Shown: positions 32,501 to 48,619 of the stretch, in pieces
Layout of the letters: every line of letters starts with the position of its first letter
Numbering within the stretch: the first letter of the stretch is position 1
DNA from: an uncultured Nitratifractor sp.
GTDB lineage: Bacteria; Campylobacterota; Campylobacteria; Campylobacterales; Sulfurovaceae
Assembly: GCA_913054475.1 (NCBI GenBank)
Contig: CAJXJF010000006.1
Location: 1-48,858, forward strand
Length of the DNA stretch: 48,858 nt
Direction: 5' to 3'
Position numbers and translations under genes: made by a program
The notes under the pieces: generated by a model
The model's input: only the letters and a program-made list of their open reading frames with translations
Told to the model about the DNA's origin: nothing
Databases searched by the model: none

Positions 32501-33190
32501 ATGCATATAGAAGCGGGTGTCGTCGAGGGCGGCAAAATGGTATTGGCTTATGCTACAGGTGCGGCCACTATGGCTGTAGGGTTCAAAATGGTATGGGAGA
32601 ATGTCGCAAAGTACGGTATCGTCTCCTATCTGCTCAAAGCGCTTCTGGCTACCGCCATAGTATTCAGCTGTTTCGAGATACTGCCCCACTATCCGGTGGG
32701 GGTGAGTGAAGTGCATCTGATACTCGGTACCACGATATACCTCATATTCGGACTGGCGCCGGCGATGACTGGACTGGCTGCGGGACTGCTGATACAGGGG
32801 CTCTTTTTCGCTCCTTCCGACCTTCCCCAATATGGGATAAATGTAACGACACTGCTCGCGAGTATTCTCATACTCCATACAGTGGCCAGAAGAGTCATTC
32901 CCGAGGGTATGGCATACAAGGATATCGGATATAGCCAACTGCTGAAACTCTCCGTGGCGTGGGAGGGGGCCATCGTGAGCTGGGTGGCCTTCTGGGCCCT
33001 CTACGGACAGGGTTTCGGTGCGGAAAATCTCTCCAATATTCTGGCTTTTGGAAGCTCCTATATGTTGGTGGTCATAATAGAGCCTCTTGTCGATCTCGCC
33101 GTACTTGCGGCGGTAAAAACACTCTATCGCGAAGGAGAGTGCAAACTCCTTTTCGAGAGCAGACTTCTGGGCTGTAAGGCGGCGTTTTGA
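32501..33190 (+). CDS. cbiM: CbiM-like cobalt transport permease
   Basis: 229 residues with six or so membrane spans. It begins MHIEAGVV; in CbiM/NikM proteins the N-terminal Met-His pair and following residues bind the metal, and this His2 is kept. HLILGTTIYLIFGLAPAMTGLAAGLLIQGLFF is the family core. It imports cobalt in energy-coupling-factor transporters, normally with CbiN, CbiQ and CbiO, none of which is here. AAAGGA lies before the ATG. It opens a 19-gene operon. Partner proteins may be elsewhere, or it may work alone with low capacity. Confidence 0.85.
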   Translation: MHIEAGVVEGGKMVLAYATGAATMAVGFKMVWENVAKYGIVSYLLKALLATAIVFSCFEILPHYPVGVSEVHLILGTTIYLIFGLAPAMTGLAAGLLIQGLFFAPSDLPQYGINVTTLLASILILHTVARRVIPEGMAYKDIGYSQLLKLSVAWEGAIVSWVAFWALYGQGFGAENLSNILAFGSSYMLVVIIEPLVDLAVLAAVKTLYREGECKLLFESRLLGCKAAF

Positions 33191-34005
33191 AGCGCTACAG
33201 ACACTACGACAAAGGTACGGCGGTCATACTCTCGTGCTTTGGCTCGGTCGTGGAGCAGAAGCTCTACGAAGATTTGAAAAGCGCAATGCAGGAGAGTTTC
33301 GAGGGGGTGGATTTCTTCATCTCCTTCAGCTCGAGAATGGTTCTCAAGGAGCTTGCCGCAAGAGGTATGGAGTATAGGAATCTGCCACAAGTTCTCGCAG
33401 ATACCGACAGGGCCGGCTATAGAAGGGTTGTCGTGGCATCTATCAATCTCTTCCCCACCGACGAACACGAACTGCTCGTAAAGACGGTAGAGGGATTCAG
33501 CCGCTTCAGTCTCTCCCGGATACGGCACACCGGAGCCATATTCGACTCGAGTGCGCAGACTAGCGCTGTGCTGAAAAAGCTCGACGATACGATAGGGCGC
33601 GAGGAGTGCGCGAATCTATATGTCATACACGGGGTGCCTCCTCTGGATTTGAAGGGGCTTGGAGCCGTCGAATATAGCCATGGTCTCCTCGAAGCCCTCT
33701 CGCCCGCGAACTTCTGCTGTTCGCTCGAGGGCGCCTATCCGTGGTCCGCTCTCAAAGATAGATTGATGCACGATATCGCGCAAAGAGGCTACAAAAAGGT
33801 GCAGGTGGTGCCGATGCTTCTTGTCAGCGGCAACCACTATATCAAGGATATGGTGGGAATCAGGGATGAACTCAGCGAACGATTCGAGAGTTTCATCGCA
33901 CCCGCCCTCGGCCAGAGCGGGAGATTCAATCTGCTCGAATTCGAAGATATACCTCGGCTGATACGCAGGAAAATCTTCGAAGAGATAGAGAAATTCGGTT
34001 GCTGA
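33187..34005 (+). CDS. cbiK: Sirohydrochlorin cobaltochelatase CbiK
   Basis: 272 residues, cytoplasmic. It inserts Co2+ into sirohydrochlorin in the anaerobic route. Two histidine motifs fit the CbiK metal site: YVIHGVPP and VPMLLVSGNHYIKDM, with SLEGAYPW as the acidic part. The duplicated class II chelatase fold is evident. The start is TTG at 33187 overlapping the cbiM stop as TTGA. It starts the dedicated pathway from sirohydrochlorin. Confidence 0.88.
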   Translation: MKRYRHYDKGTAVILSCFGSVVEQKLYEDLKSAMQESFEGVDFFISFSSRMVLKELAARGMEYRNLPQVLADTDRAGYRRVVVASINLFPTDEHELLVKTVEGFSRFSLSRIRHTGAIFDSSAQTSAVLKKLDDTIGREECANLYVIHGVPPLDLKGLGAVEYSHGLLEALSPANFCCSLEGAYPWSALKDRLMHDIAQRGYKKVQVVPMLLVSGNHYIKDMVGIRDELSERFESFIAPALGQSGRFNLLEFEDIPRLIRRKIFEEIEKFGC

Positions 34006-34009
34006 GAAG

Positions 34010-34681
34010 ATGCTTTATATGGTTTCTTTGGGGCCGGGAGACCCCTCGCTCGTCACCCTCAAGGCGCTCGATACTCTAAAGGCCGTGGATGCGATATGCA
34101 TACCCACCAAAAGCGGAGACAGGAGTTTCACGAAATCTCTGAGCTACCGCATCGTGGAGGAGTTGGCTTCGAGATACTCTCTGAAAGCCCGGAGAGTACC
34201 GATATACGCTCCGATGAACTATAGGGAAGAGGATTGGAGAGAGCAGGCCAAAGAGATAGCCGACTGTCTGGATAGATATGGCGAAACGGCCTTCGTGACA
34301 CTCGGAGATGCCGCCATATACAGCAGTGTCTACTATCTGCTGGATATCTTCGAGAGGGACTATCCCGAACTCTATGAAAAGTGTGAGGTGATAGCCGGTG
34401 TCACATCCTTTTCTCAGGCATCCGCCAAGGTGAAGAAGCCTCTCTGTCTGGGTGAGAGCGCTCTTAGTATAGAGCCTCTGCCCCTGCGCGAGACGCAACG
34501 AAGCAGAGTCTATATGCGCCCTTGGGTCGGTATGCCTACAGAGAGTATACCGGAGTCGGGAGAGCTCTACCGCTTCGAAAATCTCGACGGAGAGAGAGAA
34601 AAAATTCTCCTAGGCAGAGGTGATGAGATAGATAGCTATATGACCCTCTTTATAGATTTTTGCCGAAAGAGGGAGGAGTGA
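34010..34681 (+). CDS. cbiL: Cobalt-factor II C20-methyltransferase
   Basis: 223 residues. The tetrapyrrole methylase N-terminus MVSLGPGDPSLVTLKALDTL and FVTLGDAAIYSSVYYLLD, then AGVTSFSQASAKVKKPL, match CbiL/CobI. It transfers a methyl from SAM to C20 of cobalt-factor II. GAGAAG precedes the ATG at 34010. Its stop overlaps the cbiC start (TGATG). Confidence 0.92.
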   Translation: MLYMVSLGPGDPSLVTLKALDTLKAVDAICIPTKSGDRSFTKSLSYRIVEELASRYSLKARRVPIYAPMNYREEDWREQAKEIADCLDRYGETAFVTLGDAAIYSSVYYLLDIFERDYPELYEKCEVIAGVTSFSQASAKVKKPLCLGESALSIEPLPLRETQRSRVYMRPWVGMPTESIPESGELYRFENLDGEREKILLGRGDEIDSYMTLFIDFCRKREE

Positions 34682-35391
34682 TGCCGTTTATCAGAATGGA
34701 GCCTCCGGTGAACGAGGCGGCAGATATCTCGAGACTCTCCTTCGAGACGATAGAGAGAGAGCTTCGGGGCTACGAGGAGTGTGCGAGATTCACCTTCCGG
34801 GAGTTGGAGGTCGCCAAGAGGCTGATACATACGACGAGCTGTTTCTCTCAGGTGCTCGAGAGCCTCCATTTCACGGAAAATGCCGTGGAGCGCATTATGA
34901 AGCTTCTTGTCGAAGGGGCTCTCATAGTGACCGATGTGAATATGATAAAGGTGGGGTTGAGCTCCTTCTATCTCCAAAAGTACGGCAACGAAAGCGTATG
35001 TTATGTAAATGAGAGCTTCGCCTACGAAAGAGCCCGAAAAGATGGAGTCACGAGGAGCTATGCGGCCGTATGCGAAGCGGTGAAGAGGCATTCGGATAGA
35101 GCGATGATATTCGCCTGCGGCAACGCGCCAACCTTCATCTATGCCGCGGTGAACACTCTCATCGACGAGGGTATCGACCCTTCGAGCTGTGCCTTCATAC
35201 TCTTTCCGGTAGGTTTCGTGAATGTCGTGGAGTCCAAAGAGTACGGTCTTTCATATGCCGAGGAGTTCTCCTCCGCCGCCATTGCGCTCAAAGGCAGATT
35301 CGGAGGCTCCACCTCTACGGTAGCGGCGCTACACGCCATATACAGGCTCATAGAGGATTTCGATTCGGAGGGAAAGTACAATGGCAGATAG
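34681..35391 (+). CDS. cbiC: Cobalt-precorrin-8 methylmutase
   Basis: 236 residues from the ATG at 34681; the frame is open a further 7 codons upstream within cbiL. It moves the C11 methyl to C12 to give cobyrinate. RLIHTTSCF holds the catalytic histidine, but the family usually has HT.(A/G)DF, so the Asp is a Cys here. IFACGNAPTFIYA and ILFPVGFVNVVESKE match the family core. It overlaps the next gene by 11 bases. Confidence 0.9.
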   Translation: MPFIRMEPPVNEAADISRLSFETIERELRGYEECARFTFRELEVAKRLIHTTSCFSQVLESLHFTENAVERIMKLLVEGALIVTDVNMIKVGLSSFYLQKYGNESVCYVNESFAYERARKDGVTRSYAAVCEAVKRHSDRAMIFACGNAPTFIYAAVNTLIDEGIDPSSCAFILFPVGFVNVVESKEYGLSYAEEFSSAAIALKGRFGGSTSTVAALHAIYRLIEDFDSEGKYNGR

Positions 35392-35833
35392 AGAGCCTCG
35401 GATAAACGAGATGGGCTCCGTCGTGGAGGATGGCTATCGATGCAAACCGCTTGTAGCCGACCCGCAAAAGGCGATGATGTATTACAAGAGCCATATCTTC
35501 ATCTGTTGCGGCGATAGATGTCGCAAAGCCTGGAAGAGAGATGACCTTCCCTCCTATCTGAGGGATATACTCAAAAGTATGAGACTGCACAAAGGGAGCA
35601 GGCGTATAAAGATTTCGACGGGAGGCTGTTTCGGTACCTGCCGTTTCAGGACGGTCGCCAATATATATGAAAACAGCAGAGGCAACGGCTTTTCGGGCAA
35701 CGACAACCTATGGCTCAAAGCGGTCCATCGCTACGACGAATCGAGATGGAGAGAGCTCTTCGAGACTCTCGATAGCGATATCGAGCTTCTGGGCAGAGGC
35801 TTCGAGAGTATCGAAATGAAGGAGTATGACTGA
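35381..35833 (+). CDS. Thioredoxin-fold [2Fe-2S] ferredoxin-like protein in the cobalamin operon
   Basis: 150 residues, cytoplasmic. Cysteines at about 42, 43, 47, 83 and 87 form HIFICCGDRC and STGGCFGTC, the pattern of thioredoxin-like [2Fe-2S] ferredoxins (C-x3-4-C and later C-x3-C). Similar domains are fused to or found next to cobalt chelatases and cobalamin genes in other bacteria. It lies between cbiC and cbiD, overlapping cbiC by 11 bases and touching cbiD. The role is not known. It could give electrons to a reductive step such as the precorrin-6A reduction, whose normal enzyme CbiJ is absent from this operon, or serve cobalt reduction. Confidence 0.75.
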   Translation: MADREPRINEMGSVVEDGYRCKPLVADPQKAMMYYKSHIFICCGDRCRKAWKRDDLPSYLRDILKSMRLHKGSRRIKISTGGCFGTCRFRTVANIYENSRGNGFSGNDNLWLKAVHRYDESRWRELFETLDSDIELLGRGFESIEMKEYD

Positions 35834-36811
35834 TTGTCCCGGCAAAGGAGGGGATTTAGCACGGGTGTGCATGCCTGTTTCGCCATGAGAGGGGCGCTGG
35901 AGGCCTTTTTGCGCACGGGAGAGCCCAGTATGTCCATAAGCAGGAAAATCGCCAACGACGATATCGATGTAACCATAGGTTGCGGGATATTTGCCGAGGT
36001 GGCTTCCGAGAAAGGGCTTTTGAATCTCAACCCGATAGAGCACGAAGCCTACGATTTGGGCCCAGTACTGCTGTATGCCGGCAGAGGGACCGGTGTGGTC
36101 TGCAAAGCCGGCTTGAAAGCCCCGAAGGGCTACGCGGCCGTCAATCCGGTGCCGCTGAAGCATCTCGAAGCCATATGCCGAAGGCTTCTCCCCTCATACG
36201 ATGCGAAGATATACGCATCTATCGGAGTGCTGGAGGGGGAGATGCTCGCTCCCCGTACAGCCAACGAAAAGGTCGGTGTGCTCGGGGGTATCTCCATACT
36301 CGGCACCAGCGGATGGGTCAAGCCGGTATCGAGCATGGCATATCTCGACTCCATAGAGACGGAGCTGTCCGTCATATCCGCCCGCTCGAGAGAGAAGGTG
36401 GTATTGACGATAGGAGAGAGTTCGAAAAAGGAGGCTCTAAAGAGCCACGGCGAAGATATCACGGTCGAGATAGGCAATTTCGTTTTCGATGCCCTCAGGC
36501 GTGTCGAAAACTTCTCTTTCGAGAGGGTGATTCTCTACTGCGGTATAGCCAAGGCGCTGAAGATTGCCCAGGGGTTCGAAAATACCCACAACCGCTACGG
36601 CTTCGCCGACCTCGAAGAGGTCGAATCCCTGTTGCGGGGATGGGGATATACAGCACTGCCGAAGGAGAGTGTGACGCTCAGAGGGATATACGACTCTCTG
36701 CCGAGAGAGTATGCCCGAAGGCTCGAAAGGTATATAGAAGAGAGGGCTGTGCGCAGATTGCGCCGAAATTTCACGACTCTGAATATAGAGCTCGATATAG
36801 TGACTGGATAG
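35834..36811 (+). CDS. cbiD: Cobalt-precorrin-5B C1-methyltransferase
   Basis: 325 residues. RRGFSTGVHACFAMRGALEAF is the family's N-terminal GFTTG-type motif, followed by VTIGCGIFAEVASEKGLLNLNP and VGVLGGISILGTSGWVKPVS. It methylates C1 of the ring with SAM; the fold is not the tetrapyrrole methylase one. The start is TTG at 35834, directly after the stop of the ferredoxin-like gene; any later start would cut the GFSTG motif. Confidence 0.93.
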   Translation: MSRQRRGFSTGVHACFAMRGALEAFLRTGEPSMSISRKIANDDIDVTIGCGIFAEVASEKGLLNLNPIEHEAYDLGPVLLYAGRGTGVVCKAGLKAPKGYAAVNPVPLKHLEAICRRLLPSYDAKIYASIGVLEGEMLAPRTANEKVGVLGGISILGTSGWVKPVSSMAYLDSIETELSVISARSREKVVLTIGESSKKEALKSHGEDITVEIGNFVFDALRRVENFSFERVILYCGIAKALKIAQGFENTHNRYGFADLEEVESLLRGWGYTALPKESVTLRGIYDSLPREYARRLERYIEERAVRRLRRNFTTLNIELDIVTG

Positions 36812-36823
36812 GAAGGGAGAGAT

Positions 36824-37978
36824 ATGCTGACCATAGCCGGCAACGGAATGGGGCCGTACAGTTTCGAGAATCTGAATCTCGATATCGATAGTTTCGACAC
36901 GATTGTATGCGACCCCAACTTCGAAGAGAGTTCCGAGAGGATACTCAAACTCCGATACAGGGAGGCCAAAGAGTATATATTGCGCAACTACGACAAAGAG
37001 GAGATACTCTATGTAGTCACCGGTTCACCCCTCTTCTATTCGGCAGGCACCATCGTGGCCAAGCTTCTGCCCCGAGAGAGTGTCACAATCGTTGACGGGG
37101 AGTCTTCGCTCGGATATCTCTGCCGCAAGCTGGCGATATCCATGGCCGATGTGCAGAGTATCTCTCTGCACGCACGAGAGCGTCCCGACCCATCCCTCCT
37201 GCTGAAACGGAGATATACATTCATACTCTGCGACGCCCACAGCGTACGGAAGATGGCCAAAGCGCTCGAACATCTCAAAAGAGACGATATCTCGGTCACC
37301 ATAGCCTACAAGCTCGGATACGAAGATGAATATATAGGAGAGTTCGACCTCTATGGCCGATGCGAGTTCGATCTCGGCGAGCCGTATGTCCTGCTGATAG
37401 AGAGACTCTTCGGGCGCGAAAGCACAATAGCCGAAGATAGCTCTTTCGTCACGGAGAGAGGGATGATAAGCAAAAAGTACAAAAGAGAGCTCTCGTTGCA
37501 GCATCTCGATCTCGAAGAGGGTATGACCCTGTGGGATATCGGTGCGGGTAGCGGAAGCTGTGCCATATCGGCATATCTGCGCTACGGCGTGGCGACGGTA
37601 CTCTTCGAAAAGAATCCCAGGAGAGCGGCCTATATAGAGGAGAATCTCGCAAGAAAACGGGTGCTATGCAGTGAACTGCTCGTAGGAGACGCCGTAGAGC
37701 ACTGGAGAGAAAGAGTCGAGAGGCCTGAGAGAATCTTCGTGGGCGGAGGGGGTGCAAGGGTGCTTGCCCTCTTGCCCGAGCTCTACGATATCCTCGCCGA
37801 TAGCGGGATAATGCTCGTGGCGGCGGTGACTCTCGATAGTCTCGTCGCCGCCATCTCCTCGCTCGAGGAGTCCGCCATAGAGTACGAAGCCATCTCCCTC
37901 TCTTTCACGAGATACAGCGGAAAACTGATGATGGCCGAACCTCAACGGGAGATATTCTGGATAAAGGTGAGAAAATGA
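36824..37978 (+). CDS. cbiET: Fused CbiE-CbiT precorrin-6Y methyltransferase
   Basis: 384 residues. The N-terminal half (about 1-190) is a tetrapyrrole methylase (IAGNGMGPYSFENL, VVTGSPLFYSAGTIVAK), CbiE. The C-terminal half (about 195-384) is a class I SAM methyltransferase with LWDIGAGSGSCAISA and GDAVEHW, then RIFVGGGGA, CbiT. The fusion (like CobL) methylates C5 and C15 and decarboxylates C12. GGAAGGGAGAG precedes the ATG at 36824. Its stop overlaps cbiF as ATGA. Confidence 0.93.
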   Translation: MLTIAGNGMGPYSFENLNLDIDSFDTIVCDPNFEESSERILKLRYREAKEYILRNYDKEEILYVVTGSPLFYSAGTIVAKLLPRESVTIVDGESSLGYLCRKLAISMADVQSISLHARERPDPSLLLKRRYTFILCDAHSVRKMAKALEHLKRDDISVTIAYKLGYEDEYIGEFDLYGRCEFDLGEPYVLLIERLFGRESTIAEDSSFVTERGMISKKYKRELSLQHLDLEEGMTLWDIGAGSGSCAISAYLRYGVATVLFEKNPRRAAYIEENLARKRVLCSELLVGDAVEHWRERVERPERIFVGGGGARVLALLPELYDILADSGIMLVAAVTLDSLVAAISSLEESAIEYEAISLSFTRYSGKLMMAEPQREIFWIKVRK

Positions 37979-38694
37979 TCTATTTCGTAGGGGCAGGTCC
38001 GGGAGATATCGAACTCCTGACGCTCAAAGCCGTCAGAGTGCTCGAAAAGGCCGATGCCGTACTCTATACGGGCTCTCTCGTACCGGCCGAAATTCTGCAA
38101 TATTGCCGTGAAGATGCGCATATAGAGGATTCGAGAGATATGGACTATGCCGAGATATTCTCCTTTCTCGAAAAGTACTCCCAGAAGCTCACCGTAAGGC
38201 TCCATACCGGCGACCCCTCACTCTACTCGACGATAGCCAAGCAGATAGAGTTTCTCGAAAGCAGAGGAATCGAATATACCGTCATACCCGGAGTCAGCGC
38301 GGCTTTCGCGGCGGCGGCTTCTCTCGGGCTGGAATATACGCTTCCGGGTATCTCCCAGACTCTCGTCATAAGCCGTGTGGAGGGGCGTACGCCCAATCCA
38401 GAGAGACTCGAGACGATACTTGCCTGCAAAAACTCTTCGAAGGTCTTCTATCTCTCGATAAAGCTGATAGAGAGTCTCGTAGCCGAAGCGTTGCGTGCGG
38501 GTTACGCCCCCGATACTCCCTGCTGGGTCGTGGAGAAGGCATCGTGGAGGGAGGAGAGAGTCTATAGAGGTACCCTCGAGGATATAGCGCCAAAGGTATC
38601 GCACATAGGCGGAGTGGCGTTGATTCTCCTCGGAGATTTCCTGCATCGAAAGAGTACGCAGAGCTCCTATCTCTACGGAGGCGGGGAGAGTTGA
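37975..38694 (+). CDS. cbiF: Cobalt-precorrin-4 C11-methyltransferase
   Basis: 239 residues. FVGAGPGDIELLTLKAVRVL, YTGSLVP, LHTGDPSLYSTI and YTVIPGVSAAFAAAASLGLEYTLP match CbiF/CobM. It places the C11 methyl. It starts in the cbiET stop (ATGA). Confidence 0.95.
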   Translation: MIYFVGAGPGDIELLTLKAVRVLEKADAVLYTGSLVPAEILQYCREDAHIEDSRDMDYAEIFSFLEKYSQKLTVRLHTGDPSLYSTIAKQIEFLESRGIEYTVIPGVSAAFAAAASLGLEYTLPGISQTLVISRVEGRTPNPERLETILACKNSSKVFYLSIKLIESLVAEALRAGYAPDTPCWVVEKASWREERVYRGTLEDIAPKVSHIGGVALILLGDFLHRKSTQSSYLYGGGES

Positions 38695-39704
38695 AGAGGA
38701 TAGCCATAGTCTCCATCAACGAGACAGGACTTGGAAGCGCTTTCAGGCTGGCGGATATTCTGTATGAGTACGACTGTGTCGTATTCGGCAAAAGGGGAGT
38801 ATGCAGCGACGATAGCGGCGCCCGCCTTTTCGACTCTCTGGCCGTAGAGTTGCGCAAAATCTATGTACAGTTCGATGCCATCGTATCTTTCGTGGCTACA
38901 GGGGCGCTGATACGCATCCTGGCTCCTCTGCTCGAAGACAAGGCGACGGACCCGGCGGTGCTGGCTGTGAGTTTCGATCTCAAAAGAGTCGTTCCTCTCA
39001 TAGGGGGGCATCTCTCCGGGGCCAACCGGCTGGCCGCCGTAATAGAGGAGAGAGTCCCCGATGCCATCTCCTTCGTGACCACGGCATCGGAGCAGCTGGG
39101 CAGACTCTCTATCGACCTGCTCGCCGCCGAGAGGGGATGGCGCATAGAGAAGCTCTCCTCTCTGGCGAGGGTGGCGAATATGCTCGTAGATGCACGGCAA
39201 GTCGCCCTCTACTGCAGTGACGCCATCTTCCACTCTCTGAGCGAATATGACTCCTTTTCGAGGGTCGAGAGGGCGGAAGATGCCGATCTGATCGTAGCGG
39301 TGGCGGGAGATTACAAAGAGAAGGCCGTTTTGAGACCTCCCCTGAGTATTGGCATCGGCTGTATGAGGGGAAGCTCCGCGGAGTCGATAGAGAGAGCGGT
39401 GGAGGAGTTTCTGCGCAGACACGATATCGATCGCAGAGAGTTGAAAACGGTGGCGAGTTATAGCGCCAAAGAGGATGAGAGGGGGCTTTTGGAGTTCATA
39501 GAGAGCTATGGAGTCGAAGCGAGGTTTTTCGATGCTGCCCAGATAGAGGGTGTCGGGGGGAGCTTTTCGCCCTCGGCCGCCGGCAAACACTTCTCCATCA
39601 AAGGGGTGGCGGAACCTTCGGCACTGCTGGCGTCGGAATATGGGGAGCTACTCTTCCCCAAAGAGGTATTTTACTCAACTATAACGATAGCGGGAGCGAT
39701 ATGA
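38691..39704 (+). CDS. cbiG: Cobalt-precorrin 5A hydrolase
   Basis: 337 residues. DAIVSFVATGALIRILAPLLEDKATDPAVLAV and VPLIGGHLSGANRLAAVI are diagnostic of the CbiG middle and N-terminal regions; a C-terminal CobE-like part follows (IGIGCMRGSSAESIERAVEEFL, FSPSAAGKHFSIKGVAEPSALLAS). It opens the delta-lactone and releases acetaldehyde. The start is TTG overlapping cbiF as TTGA. Confidence 0.93.
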   Translation: MKRIAIVSINETGLGSAFRLADILYEYDCVVFGKRGVCSDDSGARLFDSLAVELRKIYVQFDAIVSFVATGALIRILAPLLEDKATDPAVLAVSFDLKRVVPLIGGHLSGANRLAAVIEERVPDAISFVTTASEQLGRLSIDLLAAERGWRIEKLSSLARVANMLVDARQVALYCSDAIFHSLSEYDSFSRVERAEDADLIVAVAGDYKEKAVLRPPLSIGIGCMRGSSAESIERAVEEFLRRHDIDRRELKTVASYSAKEDERGLLEFIESYGVEARFFDAAQIEGVGGSFSPSAAGKHFSIKGVAEPSALLASEYGELLFPKEVFYSTITIAGAI

Positions 39705-40492
39705 TGAACAGACTATATATAATCAGTAGCGGTGCGGGCGGAGAGAGCTATATAAGCGCCGAAGCGAGAGAGGCCCTGAGGGAGTGCGAGGTGGTCGTCT
39801 CCTATGTCAAGTATGCCAAAGAGCTCAAAGAGCTTCTCGAAGGCAAAGAGGTGATAACCTCGGGAATGACCAAAGAGATTCAGAGGTGCAAAGAGGCTAT
39901 AGATAGTGCCCTGAGCGGAAAGACTACGGCAATCATATCCAACGGAGATGTGAATGTTTACGGTATGGCCACACTGATTGTGGAGATGGTGGATGAAGAG
40001 AATCTCTGGGAGAGACTCGAAGTGCGCTCCCTCCCGGGAGTGACGGCACTTCTGGCTGTAGCGAGCAAGGCGGGCGCTCCTTTGAGCCAGGATTTCGCGG
40101 TCGTCTCCCTCTCCGACAGACTGACCGATATCGAAGTGATACGAAGACGCGTCGAGGCTGCGCTGGAGGGAGATTTCGTACTCGGTATATACAACCCCAA
40201 ATCGAGGAGCAGAGTCAAACCCTACGAAATGTTCCTCGAGAGGCTGGCAAACTATCCCGACCGTCCGGTGGTGGTGGCTTCGAATGTGGGCAGGGAGAGA
40301 GAAAAGATAGTCTATACCAGCAGTCACAAACTCGTCGAGGCCGGAGTCGAAAATCCCGATATGGGTATGTCCACACTTCTACTCGTAGGCAATTCGAACA
40401 GCAGATTCACGAAAAACGGGAAGGTGCTCACCCCCAGAGGCTATTTCGACAAATACGACTCCGCCGGTGAACTGAAGGGGAGTAGAGAGTGA
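39701..40492 (+). CDS. cbiH: Cobalt-precorrin-3 C17-methyltransferase
   Basis: 263 residues. ISNGDVNVYGMATLIVEM, VRSLPGVTALLAVASKAGAPL and DFAVVSLSDRL match CbiH/CobJ, and GIYNPKSRSRVKPY follows. The N-terminus (YIISSGAGGESYISAEAREAL) differs from the usual GIGPG-x-x motif. It methylates C17 with ring contraction. ATGATG offers two starts at 39701 and 39704; the first overlaps the cbiG stop. It is clear as a tetrapyrrole methylase of this type. Confidence 0.92.
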   Translation: MMNRLYIISSGAGGESYISAEAREALRECEVVVSYVKYAKELKELLEGKEVITSGMTKEIQRCKEAIDSALSGKTTAIISNGDVNVYGMATLIVEMVDEENLWERLEVRSLPGVTALLAVASKAGAPLSQDFAVVSLSDRLTDIEVIRRRVEAALEGDFVLGIYNPKSRSRVKPYEMFLERLANYPDRPVVVASNVGREREKIVYTSSHKLVEAGVENPDMGMSTLLLVGNSNSRFTKNGKVLTPRGYFDKYDSAGELKGSRE

Positions 40493-41769
40493 AGCTCCCC
40501 TCCCTCTGTATAGCCTCCTGCTCATCCGGCAGAGGCAAGACCGTACTATCGAGCGCTCTTATGTACCGCTTCAGGGATATCGTACGAGCATTCAAGATTG
40601 GGCCGGACTTCATAGACCCCCGTTTCCATGCCAGACTCTGCGGCAGAGCGTCGGTCAATCTCGACAGCTTTATAATGAACGAAGAGCAGTTGAAGCGACT
40701 CTTCGTAGATAATAGCGCGAAGCTGAATCTGATAGAGGGGGCCATGGGTTTCTACGACGGAGAGGATAGAGGCTGTAGTACACACAGCGTCACGGCCGCC
40801 CTCCGTGTACCTGTCGTTCTGCTCATGGACGCTTCGGGGAGCTACATCACCCTTTCGGCACTGCTCAAGGGTATGAGAGAGTATAGAAGAGGCAATATGA
40901 TAAAGGCGGTGGTGCTCAATCGCGTCTCGTCGGCCAGCCACTACGAGAGGATAGCTTCCATCCTGGCCAGAGAGCATCCGGATATAGAGCTTCTGGGCTG
41001 GATAGGACGAGAGCTCCCCTCTCTGCACTCCACCCATCTCGGACTCGACATGGGGGATATCTCTCTGATGCAGAGCATAGCCTCCCAGGTACTCGAGCAT
41101 ATAGATATGGATGCCCTGCTGAGTATAGCCAAGAGTGCCCAAATAGCCGAGCCCGAAACGCAAAACCCCTTCCCTGCGCACGATATTGGCGGTAAAAAAG
41201 CGGTTTTGGTCCATGACGAAAACTTCTCTTTTCTCTATCACGACAACTATCTCTTCCTCAAGGAGTCTTTCGGGGAGGTGCAGATAGTCAGTGCCGTGAA
41301 AGATGAGGAGATAGACCCCCGCAGCGACCTGGTACTGCTCTGCGGCGGTTATGTGGAGAGTGAGGAGGCCTATGCGCGCATAGCGGGCTCGAAGCGTTTC
41401 GCGGACTCTCTGAGGAGCTATCTGCAGGGAGGGGGACGGGTATATGCGGAGTGTGCGGGGCTGCTCTATCTCTCCGAGAGGGTGGACGACAAGAGGATGA
41501 GCGGCATACTCCCGCTCGCCTTTCATATGGAAAAACGCTTCCAAAGACTTGGTTACTACTACGACGAGAGCGGAACGAAGGGGCACGCTTTCCACTATAC
41601 CCGCCCCGACGAAGCGAGCCTCTGCAAAGCCTGCGGCAGACTTTCGAAAGAGCCGCGGGGAGAGGGGAGCGGCGGTGTGTGGTGCGCTTACGAAGGCAGG
41701 CTCAGGGCCACCTATCTGCATACGATGTTCAGAGCCTATCCCGATATTCTGTCGATGGAGAGACGATGA
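40489..41769 (+). CDS. cbiA: Cobyrinate a,c-diamide synthase
   Basis: 426 residues. The N-terminal P-loop-like ASCSSGRGKTVLSSAL and FKIGPDFIDPRFH (ATP and cobyrinate site) are followed by LIEGAMGFYDG. The C-terminal glutaminase shows the Cys nucleophile in YAECAGLLYLSE and His in YLHTMFRAYP. It amidates the a and c carboxylates with glutamine and ATP. The start is GTG overlapping cbiH as GTGA. Confidence 0.94.
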   Translation: MKLPSLCIASCSSGRGKTVLSSALMYRFRDIVRAFKIGPDFIDPRFHARLCGRASVNLDSFIMNEEQLKRLFVDNSAKLNLIEGAMGFYDGEDRGCSTHSVTAALRVPVVLLMDASGSYITLSALLKGMREYRRGNMIKAVVLNRVSSASHYERIASILAREHPDIELLGWIGRELPSLHSTHLGLDMGDISLMQSIASQVLEHIDMDALLSIAKSAQIAEPETQNPFPAHDIGGKKAVLVHDENFSFLYHDNYLFLKESFGEVQIVSAVKDEEIDPRSDLVLLCGGYVESEEAYARIAGSKRFADSLRSYLQGGGRVYAECAGLLYLSERVDDKRMSGILPLAFHMEKRFQRLGYYYDESGTKGHAFHYTRPDEASLCKACGRLSKEPRGEGSGGVWCAYEGRLRATYLHTMFRAYPDILSMERR

Positions 41770-42557
41770 GCCAAGCTGTATCACGAAAGCTACTCCCCGA
41801 CGCCGACACTCTCCTTCGCACCTCCACGAAAAGCCGATATGGCATAAGTGCGGATGTATATATTCTCGAAGATGGCAATTTTCTCAAGATATTTCCCGCC
41901 TCGTACGAAAAGAGCCGTATAGAGTGGGAGAAGATGCTTCTGGCGCATCTATCGCATATGCAGGTGCCGAGGATAGTCGGAAGCTTCTCCACACAAAGAG
42001 GAGAGGCGATACTCTACGAAAGGCTGGACGGCACTCACCCCTTCGAGCCCTCCACGCCGCAGCTTGCCCGTATCGGAGCCTTTCTCGCCGGAGTACACGA
42101 CTACGGCAAAAAGGCTCTTGCGCAGTCCGATTTCGCCAACTACGCCCCTGCATACGAACTTCCGGCTGTCGCGCGGCACTTCGAAAAGCTTCGCAGGAGG
42201 ATAGATTTCGAGCCTCGTCGTGAAACGATTCTCCATTGCGACCCCTTCCCCGACAATATCCTCTTCGTCGGGGAGAGGCTTTCGGGCTTCATAGACTTTT
42301 CCGATGCCTCTTTGGGCGACCCCCGCTTCGATTTGGGGGTGGCGCTGATGTCGATGTGTATGGATGAAGATAGAGTCGATAGAGGCAGGGCGGAAGCGCT
42401 TTTGGGGGGTTACGGAGGGGTGTATAGCGCCGACTCTCTGGAGGGGGCGGTCGATTTCGCCCTCTTTCACTATATGGCGAAACGCCTTGATATGGGAAAG
42501 AAGAGCTATCTGAAGCTCTACGAAATTTTGATAAAAAGATTGAAAAAAAGGAGTTGA
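41766..42557 (+). CDS. Homoserine kinase II / APH-fold phosphotransferase in the cobalamin operon
   Basis: 263 residues from the ATG at 41766, which overlaps the cbiA stop as ATGA; the frame is open far upstream in cbiA but that part is a shadow. It has the aminoglycoside phosphotransferase/choline kinase fold: possible ATP lysine in FLKIF (K41), catalytic HCDPFPDN (H157, D159, N164) and metal-binding IDFSDAS (D177). The HxDxxxxN and LSGFIDF stretches are close to ThrB-II homoserine kinases. In this operon CobD needs L-threonine phosphate, normally made by PduX, which is missing. This protein is thus a candidate L-threonine (or L-serine) kinase; that is inference. An antibiotic or homoserine role is less likely by context. 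Confidence 0.8.
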   Translation: MSQAVSRKLLPDADTLLRTSTKSRYGISADVYILEDGNFLKIFPASYEKSRIEWEKMLLAHLSHMQVPRIVGSFSTQRGEAILYERLDGTHPFEPSTPQLARIGAFLAGVHDYGKKALAQSDFANYAPAYELPAVARHFEKLRRRIDFEPRRETILHCDPFPDNILFVGERLSGFIDFSDASLGDPRFDLGVALMSMCMDEDRVDRGRAEALLGGYGGVYSADSLEGAVDFALFHYMAKRLDMGKKSYLKLYEILIKRLKKRS

Positions 42558-42558
42558 A

Positions 42559-43626
42559 ATGTTTGGAAAAATCAGAGGAGATGCGAAACTGAGCCAGGAA
42601 CTCGCTGCCAACAAGGCGGATTTCATGCTGGCTCTTTGCAACAGTGCTACTGCCGACATAGAGGGAATCACCCAGGCCGGACTGCCCGGCAGAATATATC
42701 TCACTCCGACGCTCGATGCGGAGTATCTCGCAAGCGGTACGGTACCGAGTCTCGGAGAGATACCCGAAACCCCCGCTGGTGTGCCCACTCCCGCCCTGAT
42801 GAGCAGAGCGGTGGAGCTTTTGAGCCCCTTCGCCTCTGTGAGTATGCTCGACCTCGGCCTGAGAGTCAAACCTCTCGTCGGGGAGCTTCTCGTCCCGATG
42901 GGAATCCAGGCCTGCGGAAACATAGCCACGCAGTGCCGTATCGAGGCGAGAGAGATATTCTACAAAGGGGTCGAGTATGCCCGGAGTGTGGAGCCCGTGG
43001 GAGAGTATATCATCCTGGCCGAATCGGTACCCTCCGGTACCACCACGGCAGAGGCGGCCGTCACCGCCCTGGGCTACGAATGCAGGGGGCTTTTTAGCTC
43101 GAGTTTCGCCGATTCACCCCTATCGGTCAAGAGGGAGACCATAGAAGCGGCCGTGAAGAGGGTCGAAGAGGAGAGTTGCGAGGGGCCTTTCGAAAAGCTC
43201 TCTCTCTGCAGTGACAATATGCTGCTCTTCTGTGCCGGTATGGTGGCCGGTTTCGGGGGGAGATATCCTCTCGTACTCGGAGGCGGTACCCAGATGGCGG
43301 CGGTAGCTCTCATAGCCGACACTCTGGCGCAGCACGAGGGGCTCGAGATAGCTTCGTCGAAGCTCTGCCTCTGGACCACGAAATGGGTGGCCGAAGATGA
43401 AAAGAGCGATATCGGAGCTCTTCTGGATATGCTCTCCTTCGAGCTCGAAGCCTCCTATCCGATATTCGACTTCTCCTCCTCTTCCCACCCCGCCCTCGCG
43501 CTATACGACAGAGGCGAGGCGAAAGAGGGGGTCGGGGCGGGAGCTTCCATCCTCTACGCTCTTGGAAAGGGGCTGAAGGTATCGGATATCGTAGCCTCCG
43601 TCGAAGAGCAGTTGGGCGGGATATGA
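42559..43626 (+). CDS. cobT: Archaeal-type nicotinate-nucleotide phosphoribosyltransferase (CobT-like)
   Basis: 355 residues. AESVPSGTTTAEAAVTALGY, MGIQACGNIATQ and VLGGGTQMAAVALIA match the TIGR00303-type CobT-like proteins found in archaea, cyanobacteria and some other bacteria. This is not the Salmonella CobT type. It activates the lower ligand base by transfer to ribose phosphate. No bluB or other dimethylbenzimidazole genes are in the window, so the base is unknown; some relatives in this phylum use adenine. AAAAGGAG precedes the ATG. Confidence 0.82.
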   Translation: MFGKIRGDAKLSQELAANKADFMLALCNSATADIEGITQAGLPGRIYLTPTLDAEYLASGTVPSLGEIPETPAGVPTPALMSRAVELLSPFASVSMLDLGLRVKPLVGELLVPMGIQACGNIATQCRIEAREIFYKGVEYARSVEPVGEYIILAESVPSGTTTAEAAVTALGYECRGLFSSSFADSPLSVKRETIEAAVKRVEEESCEGPFEKLSLCSDNMLLFCAGMVAGFGGRYPLVLGGGTQMAAVALIADTLAQHEGLEIASSKLCLWTTKWVAEDEKSDIGALLDMLSFELEASYPIFDFSSSSHPALALYDRGEAKEGVGAGASILYALGKGLKVSDIVASVEEQLGGI

Positions 43627-44117
43627 AGATACTCTACTGGGGAGCGTCCCGCTCGGGCAAGAGTATGCTTGCCGAAGAGAGGGCCAGAGAGTTGGCACGG
43701 GGACGGCAGATAGGATATATCGCCACATACGACGGAAGCTACCACGACGAAGAGATGCGCGCCAGGGTGCTTCTACACAGAAGACGCAGAGGAGAGGAGT
43801 TTGTGACCATAGAGGAGAGTATGGAGCCTTCCCGGGTACTCGAAGAGGGCGGCATATATCTGCTCGACTCCTTCTCCATGTGGATATTCAATACTCTTGC
43901 AAGAGAGTACGAAGAGGTGGAGAGTATGACGAAGGAGCTCTTCGAGAGCAGCTGCGACCTGCTTCTCGTCGCCGACGATACGGGCGGAGGATTGATACCC
44001 GACGATGCCCAAAGCCGCCTCTTCGCCGAGAGAAACGCTACGATGAGCGCTCTTTGCGCCAGACTCTGCGACGAGGTCGTGGAGGTGAAACTGGGAATGG
44101 AGTTCAGACTCAAATGA
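43623..44117 (+). CDS. cobU: Adenosylcobinamide kinase / guanylyltransferase
   Basis: 164 residues. The P-loop GASRSGKSMLAEE starts near residue 7, and LLHRRRRGEEFVTIEE holds the GMP-accepting histidine region. IYLLDSFSMW and LLVADDTGGGLIPDD follow the family. It phosphorylates the aminopropanol side chain and then adds GMP. It overlaps cobT as ATGA. Confidence 0.92.
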   Translation: MKILYWGASRSGKSMLAEERARELARGRQIGYIATYDGSYHDEEMRARVLLHRRRRGEEFVTIEESMEPSRVLEEGGIYLLDSFSMWIFNTLAREYEEVESMTKELFESSCDLLLVADDTGGGLIPDDAQSRLFAERNATMSALCARLCDEVVEVKLGMEFRLK

Positions 44118-45124
44118 GAAGATTCGAACATGGAGGCGACATAGCCTCTTTCGCCGAAAAGTATTCGCTGAGACTAGAGGATGTGATAGACCTCTCCTCC
44201 AATATCAACTTCGTAAAACCGCATATAGAGGCCAACTTCGCCGACTCCGTGGAGCCCTCGCTATATCCCGACTACGGAAAACTCCGACGGGCTCTGGCAT
44301 CGTTCTACGGTAGCGACGAAGAGTCTCTCGAGCTATACACGGGAGCCGGGTCGGCTATCTTTTCGCTCATGCGTTTTCTGCCGCAGAGAGATGTATATCT
44401 CTACGCCCCGCTCTATCTGGAGTACGAGAGGGCCGCCCTCGCCTGCTCCAAGAGGGTCTTCAAGATAGATAGACGGGAGTGCTCGTACGACGAGCCGGGC
44501 CCCTCTTCGATAGTGGTATTCGTAAACCCCTCCACCCCCGACGGCGCATATCACGACCTCTCCAAACTTTTGCGTATATGCCGAGAGAGGGGATGCAGTC
44601 TCGTTATCGACGAATCTTTTCTCGAATTTTCCGCAAAGGAGTCTTCGATAGAGAGAATCGCGGAGTATGAAAATCTCTATATAGTCCGCTCCGTAGGCAA
44701 ATACTTTTCGGCCGCGGGGGTGCGTATAGGGGCACTTCTCTCCTCCGCTCGCAATATCCGGAAAATATCGGCTACAGAGCCCCTATGGAAGATTTCGACA
44801 TACGACTGCCGCTATATGAATCTCGCACTCGAAGACAAAAGTTTCGCCCGAAGGTCGCAGGAGGGCAACGGCGAAGCCAAAAAGATACTCGAAGATATTC
44901 TGCGCTCCTCCCCCTATGTGAAGGAGTTCTACCCCTCCGAAGCCAACTTCGTACTGGCTCGACTCGACGGGGTGGACGCCCCCACCCTCTCCCGAAGACT
45001 CGCGCAGTATGCGATTATGGCGAGAGAGTGCTCCAATTTCGACTTTCTGGACCGCAGCTATATGCGCTTCGCCCTGAAGGAGCCCCGGAAACTATATCGT
45101 CTCGGGGAGGCCATGGATGCGTGA
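44114..45124 (+). CDS. cobD: L-threonine-O-3-phosphate decarboxylase (CobD-type aminotransferase fold)
   Basis: 336 residues from the ATG at 44114; the upstream open frame in cobU is a shadow. It is a PLP fold type I protein: LSSNINFVKP, TGAGSAIFSLMRF, VNPSTPDG (Asn near 138), VIDESFLEF (Asp near 166) and SVGKYFSAAGVRIG with the Schiff-base Lys near 196. In cobalamin synthesis this family decarboxylates L-threonine phosphate to aminopropanol phosphate. Homologs can use L-serine phosphate and yield norcobamides, so the substrate is not certain. It overlaps cobU as ATGA and cbiP by 8 bases. Confidence 0.88.
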   Translation: MRRFEHGGDIASFAEKYSLRLEDVIDLSSNINFVKPHIEANFADSVEPSLYPDYGKLRRALASFYGSDEESLELYTGAGSAIFSLMRFLPQRDVYLYAPLYLEYERAALACSKRVFKIDRRECSYDEPGPSSIVVFVNPSTPDGAYHDLSKLLRICRERGCSLVIDESFLEFSAKESSIERIAEYENLYIVRSVGKYFSAAGVRIGALLSSARNIRKISATEPLWKISTYDCRYMNLALEDKSFARRSQEGNGEAKKILEDILRSSPYVKEFYPSEANFVLARLDGVDAPTLSRRLAQYAIMARECSNFDFLDRSYMRFALKEPRKLYRLGEAMDA

Positions 45125-46463
45125 TATATCCGTCTTCGGTACCCACAGCGACGCGGGCAAATCGACCATAACTATGCTCCTGCTGCATATTCTGGCCAAA
45201 AACGGCATAGAGTGCGCCCCCTTCAAGGCGCAGAATGTATCCAACAATGCAGCAGTGGCCGACGACGGCTCGGAGATAGCCGTAGCCCAGCACTTCCAGG
45301 CACGGACAGCCGGAGTAGGAAGCTCATGGCACAACAATCCCGTACTCCTCAAATCCGCAAGGGGCAACGCCGCCTCACTCATCCTCAAAGGCAGAGCAGT
45401 AGCCCCTACGGAGGTGAGAGAGTACTACCGCAGACTCCACAGACTCGAACCGATAGTGACGGAGGCCTACGAAAGGCTCGGTGGGGAGTATCGGACGATA
45501 GTGGCCGAAGGTGCGGGAAGTCCGGTCGAGCTGAATCTGATGGACAAGGATCTCTCCAATATCTACATAGCCCGAAGCTTCGGCAATGCCATCATACTCG
45601 TCGCGGATATAGAAAAGGGTGGAGTCTTCGCCTCGATCTACGGTGTGGCGCAACTGCTCCCGCCGGATCTGCGCAAGAATCTATGCGGAGTGGTGGTCAA
45701 CAAATTCAGAGGCGACCGCTCCCTCTTCGACGAGGGTATTAAGATAATAGAGGAGCGCTTCGCTCTGCCGGTCTTCGCGCTTTTGCCCCACCACCCTCTC
45801 AACTACGGCTTCGAAGACTCCCAGAGCCTCAGAGGATATCGCAAGACGAAGAGCATAGAAGGCGCCAAAAAGGTGGCGGTGACGGCATATCCCTACATGA
45901 GCAACTACAACGATCTCGAAGCGCTGATGAACGATCCCGGTATAGAGCTCGACTTTCTCGATTCCGCCCGGGCGCTCGACGCCTACGATATGGTGATTCT
46001 TCCGGGCTCGAAACTTGTGATGGAGGATCTCAGATGGCTCAAGAGGAGAGGCTTTTTCGAGAGTCTTGGGAGTTTCGGAGGTGAGATAGTCGGTATATGT
46101 GGAGGCTACGAGATGATGTTCAAAGAGATAGTCGATCCCTACGGTATCGAGGGTGTCGCCGGCGAGAGAGAGAAGGGGCTCGCCTTCATAGACGATACGA
46201 TAGTGCTCGAAAAGGAGAAGATAGTCCGAAGGGGTGAATATGAGCTCTTCGGCAGGAAATTGCCCGAGGGCTTCGAGATTCATCACGGACGAAGCGCGAA
46301 ATATCCTCTCTACTTCGACGATGGCAGAATAAGGGGGAGTTTCGTACATGCCCTCTTCGACGATGCGCCGGCGATAGAGAGGCGCACAAGAAGCGTAGCG
46401 GAGTATCTGGAGTATATGAGCTCCTTCGTGGATGAAGGGAGGTTGCTCGAAAGTGTATTTTGA
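45117..46463 (+). CDS. cbiP: Adenosylcobyric acid synthase (glutamine-hydrolysing)
   Basis: 448 residues. FGTHSDAGKSTITMLLLHILAKNG and PFKAQNVSNNAAV are the ATP and substrate regions; AEGAGSPVELNLMD and the glutaminase GICGGYEMMF with HGRSAKYPLYF and FVHALFDD are present. It amidates b, d, e and g carboxylates. It starts 8 bases before the cobD stop. Confidence 0.95.
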   Translation: MRDISVFGTHSDAGKSTITMLLLHILAKNGIECAPFKAQNVSNNAAVADDGSEIAVAQHFQARTAGVGSSWHNNPVLLKSARGNAASLILKGRAVAPTEVREYYRRLHRLEPIVTEAYERLGGEYRTIVAEGAGSPVELNLMDKDLSNIYIARSFGNAIILVADIEKGGVFASIYGVAQLLPPDLRKNLCGVVVNKFRGDRSLFDEGIKIIEERFALPVFALLPHHPLNYGFEDSQSLRGYRKTKSIEGAKKVAVTAYPYMSNYNDLEALMNDPGIELDFLDSARALDAYDMVILPGSKLVMEDLRWLKRRGFFESLGSFGGEIVGICGGYEMMFKEIVDPYGIEGVAGEREKGLAFIDDTIVLEKEKIVRRGEYELFGRKLPEGFEIHHGRSAKYPLYFDDGRIRGSFVHALFDDAPAIERRTRSVAEYLEYMSSFVDEGRLLESVF

Positions 46464-47334
46464 ACTGACACTCTGCGCCCTTCTCATCGACAAAGTCATA
46501 GGCGAATTCAGCTCGAAGAGGCATCCTGTAGTCCTGATGGGCGGATTCATCGATTTTCTGCAGAAGCGTTTCTATGCCGATTCGATAGCTGCCGGTGCCG
46601 TACCTGCTCTGCTCGTACCTCTTGCCAGCTTTCTATCGTCCTATCTTCTCGTCGCGATGTCGCAGGAGCTCTCTCTTCTTGGTTTCGCTCTTGTCGCCTT
46701 GGCAGCCTCCACCGCCATAGCCGCGAATATGCTCGAAGCGTCGGTACGCAGGATAGAGAGCTTTCCCCACGAAATCGCCTGGCTTGTGAGCAGGGATACA
46801 CAGAATATGAGCAGTAGCGAGAGATACAGGGCGGCCATAGAGAGTTATGCCGAGAATCTGAGCGACGGTGTGGTGGCACCGCTTTTCTATATGCTCCTCT
46901 TCGGCCTGCCCGGCGCCATGACATACAAAGCGATAAACACTCTCGATTCGATGATAGGCTACAGAAACGAAAGATACGAAAACTACGGCAGGATATCGGC
47001 CCGTATCGACGATGTGGCCAACTACATACCATCTAGACTTAGTGCTCTTCTCATTCTCATGTGTGGCGGCAGGCTTTCCGCACTGCCCGCTATATCCAGA
47101 GACGGGGCGCGACACGAAAGCCCGAATGCCGGACTGCCGATATCCGCCATGGGATACACTCTGCGCATCTCTCTGGGCGGGCCTGCGAGCTATTTCGGAA
47201 AAATCAGAGCCAAACCCCGACTCTCCAAAGGCAGAGAGAATATCGGCACGGACGACCTGCACAGGGCTCTGGCACTGCATCCGAAAATCGAAAGCGTACT
47301 GTATATCATACTTTTTTTGGGGGTTCTGTTTTGA
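46453..47334 (+). CDS. cbiB: Adenosylcobinamide-phosphate synthase CbiB
   Basis: 293 residues from the GTG at 46453, with GGGAGG about 10 bases upstream; an ATG at 46432 is also in frame but lacks a ribosome site. Several membrane spans; LLIDKVIGEFSSKRHPVVLMG, ESYAENLSDGVVAPLFYMLLFG, MTYKAINTLDSMIGYRNERYENYG and RLSALLILMCGG are CbiB hallmarks. It joins aminopropanol (phosphate) to adenosylcobyrate at the inner membrane. It overlaps cbiP by 11 bases. Confidence 0.95.
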   Translation: MYFELTLCALLIDKVIGEFSSKRHPVVLMGGFIDFLQKRFYADSIAAGAVPALLVPLASFLSSYLLVAMSQELSLLGFALVALAASTAIAANMLEASVRRIESFPHEIAWLVSRDTQNMSSSERYRAAIESYAENLSDGVVAPLFYMLLFGLPGAMTYKAINTLDSMIGYRNERYENYGRISARIDDVANYIPSRLSALLILMCGGRLSALPAISRDGARHESPNAGLPISAMGYTLRISLGGPASYFGKIRAKPRLSKGRENIGTDDLHRALALHPKIESVLYIILFLGVLF

Positions 47335-48080
47335 GAAGCGACGGATATATCGGATGGAAACTCGCATGGAGCTACTTCAGCCGTTTTCCCGTGAGGATTG
47401 CGCCGGAGGAGTTCAGAGATAACGAGAGAGTATATAGAGCCATGCTCCTGTCGATTCCCACGGTAGGTGCGGGAGCGGCTCTTGCGGCGCTACTCTCCTG
47501 GCATCTGCTTGGCTCCCTGCAGTGGTACGGCGCCCTCGTTTCGGCACTGATATATATGTTCTCCTACGGTTTTCTTCACAACGAAGCGGTGGCGGATGTG
47601 GCGGATGCACTATACGCCGCCCATAGCGGCAAAGACCCTTACGAAGTGATAAAAGATCCCGCGGTCGGAGCGATGGGACTCTTCTACGGTATGGCTCTCG
47701 CCCTCCTCAAGATATCGGGCATCGTCTATCTTCTGCTGCACGATATGGAGGGGGTGGTGATAGCCGCGGCCATAGGGAGTCGCCTTGGCATACTCCCCCT
47801 CTTTCTCCTCTACGACTTTCGTTCATCTTTCGCAAGCAGACTCAAAAACTCCGTAAGGGCTGTAGATATAGCCGCCATCTTTCCGCTATATACGGTCGCC
47901 ATACTCCTATGTGCCGGTTCCTACTCCATACTCGCCGTTCTCCTCCTCTGCGCTATAGGAGCCGTCGTTGTCTCGCGCCATATCGTATCCACCCTCGGTT
48001 TCGCCAACGGGGATATGCTCGGCACGGTAATCGAGACAGGCGAGCTGATCTTCATAATAGGAGCCGCACTATGGCTCTGA
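47331..48080 (+). CDS. cobS: Adenosylcobinamide-GDP ribazoletransferase CobS
   Basis: 249 residues, an integral membrane enzyme. The TTG at 47331 overlaps the cbiB stop as TTGA; the long open frame before it is a shadow in cbiB. GFLHNEAVADVADALYA and VIKDPAVGAMG correspond to the family's LHLDGLADTADG and MKD-x-x-x-G motifs, with Asn in place of the first Asp. SRFPV near the N-terminus is typical. It joins the nucleotide loop to the corrin ring. Confidence 0.9.
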   Translation: MRSDGYIGWKLAWSYFSRFPVRIAPEEFRDNERVYRAMLLSIPTVGAGAALAALLSWHLLGSLQWYGALVSALIYMFSYGFLHNEAVADVADALYAAHSGKDPYEVIKDPAVGAMGLFYGMALALLKISGIVYLLLHDMEGVVIAAAIGSRLGILPLFLLYDFRSSFASRLKNSVRAVDIAAIFPLYTVAILLCAGSYSILAVLLLCAIGAVVVSRHIVSTLGFANGDMLGTVIETGELIFIIGAALWL

Positions 48081-48619
48081 CACTCCTCAGACACGCTCCG
48101 CCCCCTCCGAAACTCAGAGGCAGATTCAACGGCTGGAGCGATATCGATATAGATAGAGATTTCGAAATTGGCGATGAGTTGCGCTCCTTTGTAGAGAAGA
48201 AGAGTTTCGAGTGTATCTTCAGCTCCGATCTGCTCAGATGCAGAGCCACACTCGATGCTCTCGGCATCGAAAACTACAGCTGCGACAAAAGGCTCAGAGA
48301 GCTTCGCTTCAAAAGCTATGTCGAAGGGAGGAGTTTCGAAGAGCTCAGCAGACGCCGAGATTACAGCCCCGCCCTTTTGGACTCCTACGAAAGTTGGTTC
48401 GAATATATAGCCGACGAGTCCCGCAAAGATTTCGAAAAGCGCATAGACGAGTTTCTCGCCCAGCTCCATCCGCAGGAGGAGATACTGCTATGCACCCATG
48501 CGGGTGTCATTCGCCATATCTGCAAAAGAGCCGGAAAAAACCCTTCGACTATAGAGTATCTTCAAGTGCTACAGCTCCCGTTTCCGAAGAGCCCGTTAGG
48601 GAACGAAGCGTCCCGATAG
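48071..48619 (+). CDS. cobC: CobC-like histidine phosphatase (alpha-ribazole phosphatase)
   Basis: 182 residues from the ATG at 48071, overlapping cobS by 10 bases; the frame upstream is a shadow. LLRHAPP is the phosphohistidine RH motif (RHA here), then IFSSDLLRCRATLDALG, and LLCTHAGVIRHI gives the second catalytic His. It removes the phosphate from the nucleotide loop or from cobalamin phosphate. The last ten residues (SPLGNEASR) fall in a hairpin-forming sequence and may be a read-through into a repeat. It ends the operon. Confidence 0.88.
   Translation: MALTLLRHAPPPPKLRGRFNGWSDIDIDRDFEIGDELRSFVEKKSFECIFSSDLLRCRATLDALGIENYSCDKRLRELRFKSYVEGRSFEELSRRRDYSPALLDSYESWFEYIADESRKDFEKRIDEFLAQLHPQEEILLCTHAGVIRHICKRAGKNPSTIEYLQVLQLPFPKSPLGNEASR

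Follow-up and report, generated by a model that had tools for sequence, protein, structure and literature searches.

The gene at positions 41766-42557 of the window (the whole stretch of 48,858 nucleotides from an uncultured Nitratifractor sp. analysed here) lies in a cobalamin operon and most likely encodes a non-orthologous L-threonine kinase (EC 2.7.1.177) of the APH/ThrB-II fold. The preliminary description had already proposed this reading, and it gains support from a ThrB encoded elsewhere in the genome, the lack of PduX and BluE, the co-occurrence with cobD, the repeated re-linkage to cob genes and a fusion to CobD; from this context we infer both the catalysis by the protein and threonine as its substrate. 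The kinase would use ATP to convert L-threonine to L-threonine O-3-phosphate, from which the CobD of the same operon would produce (R)-1-amino-2-propanol phosphate, to be joined to adenosylcobyric acid by CbiB. In Campylobacterota the APH kinase would, on this scheme, replace PduX/BluE.

The kinase gene and its operon

The features recognised in the window are the following, all on the forward strand:

33187-40492, +, corrin-ring genes cbiK, cbiL, cbiC, a Cys-rich ORF (35381-35833), cbiD, cbiET, cbiF, cbiG and cbiH (NCBIfam; cbiD TIGR00312, E 6.9e-56)
40489-41769, +, CbiA, cobyrinate a,c-diamide synthase, with a 4-base overlap with the kinase (PRK01077, 274.5 bits, above cut-off)
41766-42557, +, APH-fold kinase P0001, predicted L-threonine kinase of the nucleotide-loop branch (PF01636, E 2.5e-26)
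41841-42485, +, span of the conserved kinase residues G26 to R240 (alignment of the 54-member family)
42559-43626, +, CobT of the TIGR00303/PRK04447 type (PRK04447.1-5, 316.5 bits, above cut-off; TIGR00303, 208 bits)
43623-44117, +, CobU, adenosylcobinamide kinase / guanylyltransferase (PRK05800, E 3e-29)
44114-45124, +, CobD, L-threonine-O-3-phosphate decarboxylase, predicted consumer of the kinase product (TIGR01140, 208 bits, E 2e-61, full length; PF00155)
45117-46463, +, CbiP, adenosylcobyric acid synthase (PRK00784, 418 bits, above cut-off)
46432-47334, +, CbiB, adenosylcobinamide-phosphate synthase, which takes aminopropanol phosphate (TIGR00380, 203 bits, above cut-off)
47331-48080, +, CobS (TIGR00317, E 8.5e-17)
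48071-48619, +, CobC, alpha-ribazole phosphatase (TIGR03162, E 4.8e-21; PF00300)

With NCBIfam and Pfam profiles the late steps from cobyrinate onward were all recognisable in the operon, namely CbiA, CbiP, CobD, CbiB, CobU, CobS, CobT and CobC. The substrate of Salmonella CobD is L-threonine O-3-phosphate. Since CobU already covers the cobinamide kinase step, threonine phosphate is the late-pathway input left without an assigned gene.

The frame of the kinase is intact from ATG to TGA and encodes 263 aa. Its ATG is part of the ATGA that carries the cbiA stop, giving the 4-base overlap, and a single base separates its TGA from the ATG of cobT, so that both junctions reported in the preliminary description were found on the sequence. 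The assignment to the APH/ThrB-II type made there also held: the match to APH (PF01636) scored 93.3 bits against a Pfam gathering cut-off of 23.2, far beyond chance, and the motifs HCDPFPDN and IDF were found intact at residues 157-164 and 176-178. In the alignment of the window kinase family, for which 54 relatives were collected from Campylobacterota, G26, K41, H111, H157, D159, F161, D163, N164, D177, Y216 and R240 are invariant (54/54). The signature of the APH superfamily is therefore present in every member, with HxDxxxxN (H157, D159, N164), the ATP lysine K41 and the metal-binding D177, H157 and D159 forming the catalytic loop. The family norm of the motif is HGDLFxDN, and the window kinase departs from it with C158 (G in 91%) and P160 (L in 80%).

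An AlphaFold2 model built on the 54 relatives had a mean pLDDT of 91.8. Its best PDB match was 2ppq, the ThrB-II homoserine kinase of Agrobacterium (E 6.9e-12), and aminoglycoside and macrolide kinases came next; the 50 best matches were APH, macrolide kinase or ThrB-II structures, all with a probability of 1.00.

Relation to the known threonine and homoserine kinases

PduX and BluE are established L-threonine kinases, the former of Salmonella (Fan and Bobik 2008, as cited in PMC6249242) and the latter of Rhodobacterales, with activity shown (PMC6249242), and CbiU (Dehre_1608) of Dehalobacter has been proposed as a third type (PMC4285132). The window kinase shares with PduX the predicted reaction (EC 2.7.1.177) and the position before CobD, the Klebsiella gene being adjacent to cobD, and with BluE the predicted reaction and the operon context. 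By contrast, PduX falls among the GHMP kinases (PF00288; E 6.5e-12 for the Klebsiella protein), and an Alloyangia protein, taken as BluE-like from its position in the cob cluster, gave only a weak GHMP match (E 0.003) and no APH match. Thus, both are of GHMP type in Pfam (BluE weakly), and the window kinase, of APH fold (PF01636) and with no PF00288 match, belongs to a different fold and falls outside the PduX/BluE group. Like the window kinase, CbiU is a homoserine-kinase relative encoded within a corrinoid operon where the genome lacks pduX, and its threonine kinase function has likewise been assigned by inference; however, CbiU is of the TIGR02535 type, a phosphoglycerate-mutase-like archaeal homoserine kinase of another fold family, and TIGR02535 was not found among the profile matches of the window kinase.

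The preliminary description had stated that the operon holds cobD and no PduX-type GHMP kinase, and this was borne out for the genome, which is 99.9% complete. Only two GHMP kinases were found in it, IspE and ThrB, the latter on contig C8 beside lpxC, which also answers the question raised there of a separate thrB; no third GHMP kinase was found. Neither the Klebsiella PduX (the record in which the gene adjoins cobD) nor the Rhodobacterales BluE-like protein gave a match in the genome when used as query. In a search run without a positive-control genome, pduX was absent from all 57 Campylobacterota genomes examined, and no third GHMP kinase was found beside cobD in Campylobacterota. In the pdu operon of E. 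coli E24377A pduX was not present.

The closest relative in both sequence and structure (2ppq) is ThrB-II, with which the window kinase probably shares an ancestor. The N-termini are similar (MGVKT and MAVYT), and HxDxFxDN, D177, C198, Y216 and R240 are common to the kinase family and ThrB-II. On the other hand, ThrB-II proteins have 320-340 aa, against about 260 aa for the kinase, and the scores with the ThrB-II models PRK05231/TIGR00938, the nearest curated families, were well below the cut-offs (68.6 vs 271 and 43.2 vs 255.9 bits). The ThrB-II residues N29, N195, A196, R235 and D243 are different in the window kinase and not conserved in its family, and K41 is mostly T in ThrB-II. In a quick tree, used for grouping only and weakly supported at its deepest branches, the Campylobacterota kinases stood apart from the ThrB-II-like sequences of alpha- and deltaproteobacteria; the window kinase and its G007 homologue formed long branches. 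The absence of the ThrB-II residues, the different state of K41 and the separation in the tree indicate that the kinase is a relative of ThrB-II and not a member.

Linkage to cob genes and co-occurrence with CobD

The genomes with kinase relatives belong to Sulfurovum, Nitratifractor, Sulfuricurvum, Sulfurimonas-type, Arcobacter and Sulfurospirillum, some of the genera being deduced from the named loci with which the relatives group. A cobalamin gene, most often cobT or cobD, lies within 3 kb on the same strand in 41 of the 54 family members; the other 13 are not beside cob genes. The immediate neighbours vary, with cobT (16 cases) or cobD (11) downstream and cbiL (6), cbiB (4) or cbiA (4) upstream, which suggests that the linkage has been re-formed repeatedly, and this is stronger evidence than a single conserved block would be. 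A tblastn search of plasmids with the kinase returned only distant ThrB-II-like proteins.

The preliminary description had called for a survey of co-occurrence with cobD, and its outcome favours the threonine kinase reading. Among 397 Campylobacterota genomes, in which kinase presence was set at E below 1e-35, 41 had both kinase and CobD, 1 the kinase only, 15 CobD only and 340 neither (Fisher p 5e-42, phylogeny ignored), that is, 42 genomes with the kinase and 56 with a true CobD. Since the curated cut-off of TIGR01140 was of no use in this phylum (0/397 genomes above it), we told true CobD apart from HisC by the E-value gap between 3.6e-59 and 5e-57 and by a match starting at profile position 1. 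Kinase and CobD occurred together in 17 genera. Moreover, cbiD was absent from 23 of the 41 genomes with both, from which it appears that the kinase tracks CobD and the late pathway, not ring synthesis. The window kinase is linked to CobD and the nucleotide-loop branch by its operon, and its family by co-occurrence across the phylum.

A strong kinase match was lacking in 15 of the 56 CobD-bearing genomes, including 5 of the 23 with cbiD, and PduX was absent from them too; one of them (G028) had only a weak kinase relative (E 5.6e-21). CobD can evidently be fed in some other way in relatives, and the APH kinase does not close the threonine-kinase gap in all Campylobacterota. The loci L127-L137 and L163-L165 come from CobD-bearing Campylobacterota, mostly Arcobacteraceae, without APH kinase, PduX or BluE-like protein, and the cob clusters read from among them contained no candidate replacement kinase. 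The reverse case, in which the kinase occurs but CobD does not and CbiB is matched weakly at best, was found in the genome G016 and in the MAGs that L066 and L067 come from, which make up one small subclade whose function may therefore differ; these, together with L058, form a subclade of kinases of about 300 aa in genomes without CobD.

A fusion of kinase and CobD

An in-frame kinase-CobD fusion of 634 aa was found at L064:168-2072, on a contig of a MAG labelled Spirochaetia. The first part belongs to the APH kinase family (196 bits), and the second, from the customary N-terminus of CobD onward, is a CobD (E 1.4e-65; the open frame has 644 codons). A kinase fused to the decarboxylase is what the threonine kinase reading predicts; the fusion is on a single MAG contig, in which a base error may have joined overlapping genes. 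Tavares reportedly described the L-threonine kinase BluE in 2018 and is also said to have described a Methanosarcina mazei CobD with kinase activity, apparently not in an APH domain. The fusion would resemble this M. mazei CobD in carrying out phosphorylation and decarboxylation of threonine in one polypeptide.

Alternative substrates and functions

It has to be considered whether the gene could be a ThrB-II homoserine kinase placed in the operon by chance, as ThrB-II is the nearest curated family and provides the nearest PDB structure. This appears very unlikely: a GHMP ThrB is already present in the genome, the score falls far short of the ThrB-II cut-off, the hallmarks N195, A196, R235 and D243 are absent while the family has an invariant K41 of its own, and the family tracks CobD, not threonine synthesis. 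We attach just as little probability to a salvage role, in which the kinase would phosphorylate free aminopropanol, ethanolamine or alpha-ribazole and so supply CbiB or CobS directly. Choline/ethanolamine kinases do have the same fold (3dxq is among the structural matches), and the frequent adjacency to cobT would suit such a role; yet a kinase for free aminopropanol would make CobD needless, and the two co-occur and can be fused, while alpha-ribazole phosphate is the direct product of CobT and the cobinamide kinase step belongs to CobU. That the gene is an unrelated hitch-hiker in the operon, for example a resistance or regulatory kinase, could be argued from the diverse functions of APH-fold kinases and from the few family members that occur without cobD, but the linkage to cob genes with differing neighbours, the CobD co-occurrence and the CobD fusion leave this explanation hardly any probability.

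A kinase for L-serine, with CobD receiving serine phosphate and norcobamides linked through ethanolamine phosphate as the result, would require the same chemistry and fold, and was considered in the preliminary description. Serine phosphate, the SerC product, arises in ordinary metabolism on the way to serine, so that no kinase would be needed to supply it; threonine phosphate, to our knowledge, is not an ordinary metabolite. In the same phylum, Sulfurospirillum multivorans makes norpseudo-B12, in which the methyl group of the linker is missing and for which a CobD-like enzyme is implicated in the supply of ethanolamine phosphate (PMC4585668). Five Sulfurospirillum genomes have a different cobamide operon; in G256 the order is cbiB, divergent cobD, cobU, cbiP, cobT, Cys-rich ORF, cobS, cobC and onwards, which matches the SMUL_1543-1566 cluster of S. 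multivorans (PMC4585668), and on this gene order we take G256 to correspond to S. multivorans. The APH kinase was found neither in the norcobamide-type operon of G256 nor in the rest of its genome, whereas G284, a congener whose operon and CobD are of the ordinary kind, carries the kinase. This distribution, together with the ordinary status of serine phosphate, favours threonine over serine and has weakened the serine alternative, which we now regard as improbable.

A probable further fold for the threonine kinase step

If threonine is indeed the substrate, cobalamin threonine kinases would be drawn from each of the three unrelated homoserine kinase folds: PduX (GHMP, like ThrB1), the proposed CbiU (phosphoglycerate-mutase-like, like the archaeal ThrB) and the APH kinase. 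We consider it rather probable, with somewhat less assurance than for the window kinase itself, that Campylobacterota have a new class of L-threonine kinases, of the ThrB-II/APH fold, which supplies their B12 synthesis, with the CobD-fused form acting as a bifunctional threonine-to-aminopropanol-phosphate synthase. No paper on an APH-fold cobalamin threonine kinase was found in a literature search that covered few subscription papers. In a survey, pduX proved absent from most of the experimentally verified cobamide producers examined and was for this reason left out of the criteria (PMC6461909); elsewhere, as in haloarchaea, EC 2.7.1.177 figures as a gap in the pathway (PMC8305020). With another fold for this step, and with a defined gene family, catalytic residues and a fusion to work from, the gap would become directly testable in one phylum; an annotation otherwise reading homoserine kinase or phosphotransferase would be corrected, and engineered B12 production would gain another enzyme.

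Other features of the cobalamin operons

The CobT of the window (42559-43626) is not of the classical Salmonella type. In late-pathway operons a conserved Cys-rich protein of about 140 aa was observed beside cbiB, cobD or cobS (L127:10226-10669, L129:6365-6790, L133:2732-3157 and L167:2105-2527), and it resembles in kind the 8-Cys SMUL_1548 protein (PMC4585668). The gene for precorrin-6A reductase, cbiJ, is missing from the window operon and from the other Campylobacterota-type cbi operons that were read. A Cys-containing protein of about 150 aa (35381-35833 in the window) has a fixed place between cbiC and cbiD, adjoining cbiD, with homologues at L132, L146, L047, L159 and L163-L165, and is a candidate either to replace CbiJ or to donate electrons at that step. 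The L159 homologue gave a weak match to thioredoxin-like [2Fe-2S]/DUF1636, and in the S. multivorans-type operon cbiJ is present and the ~150-aa protein absent.
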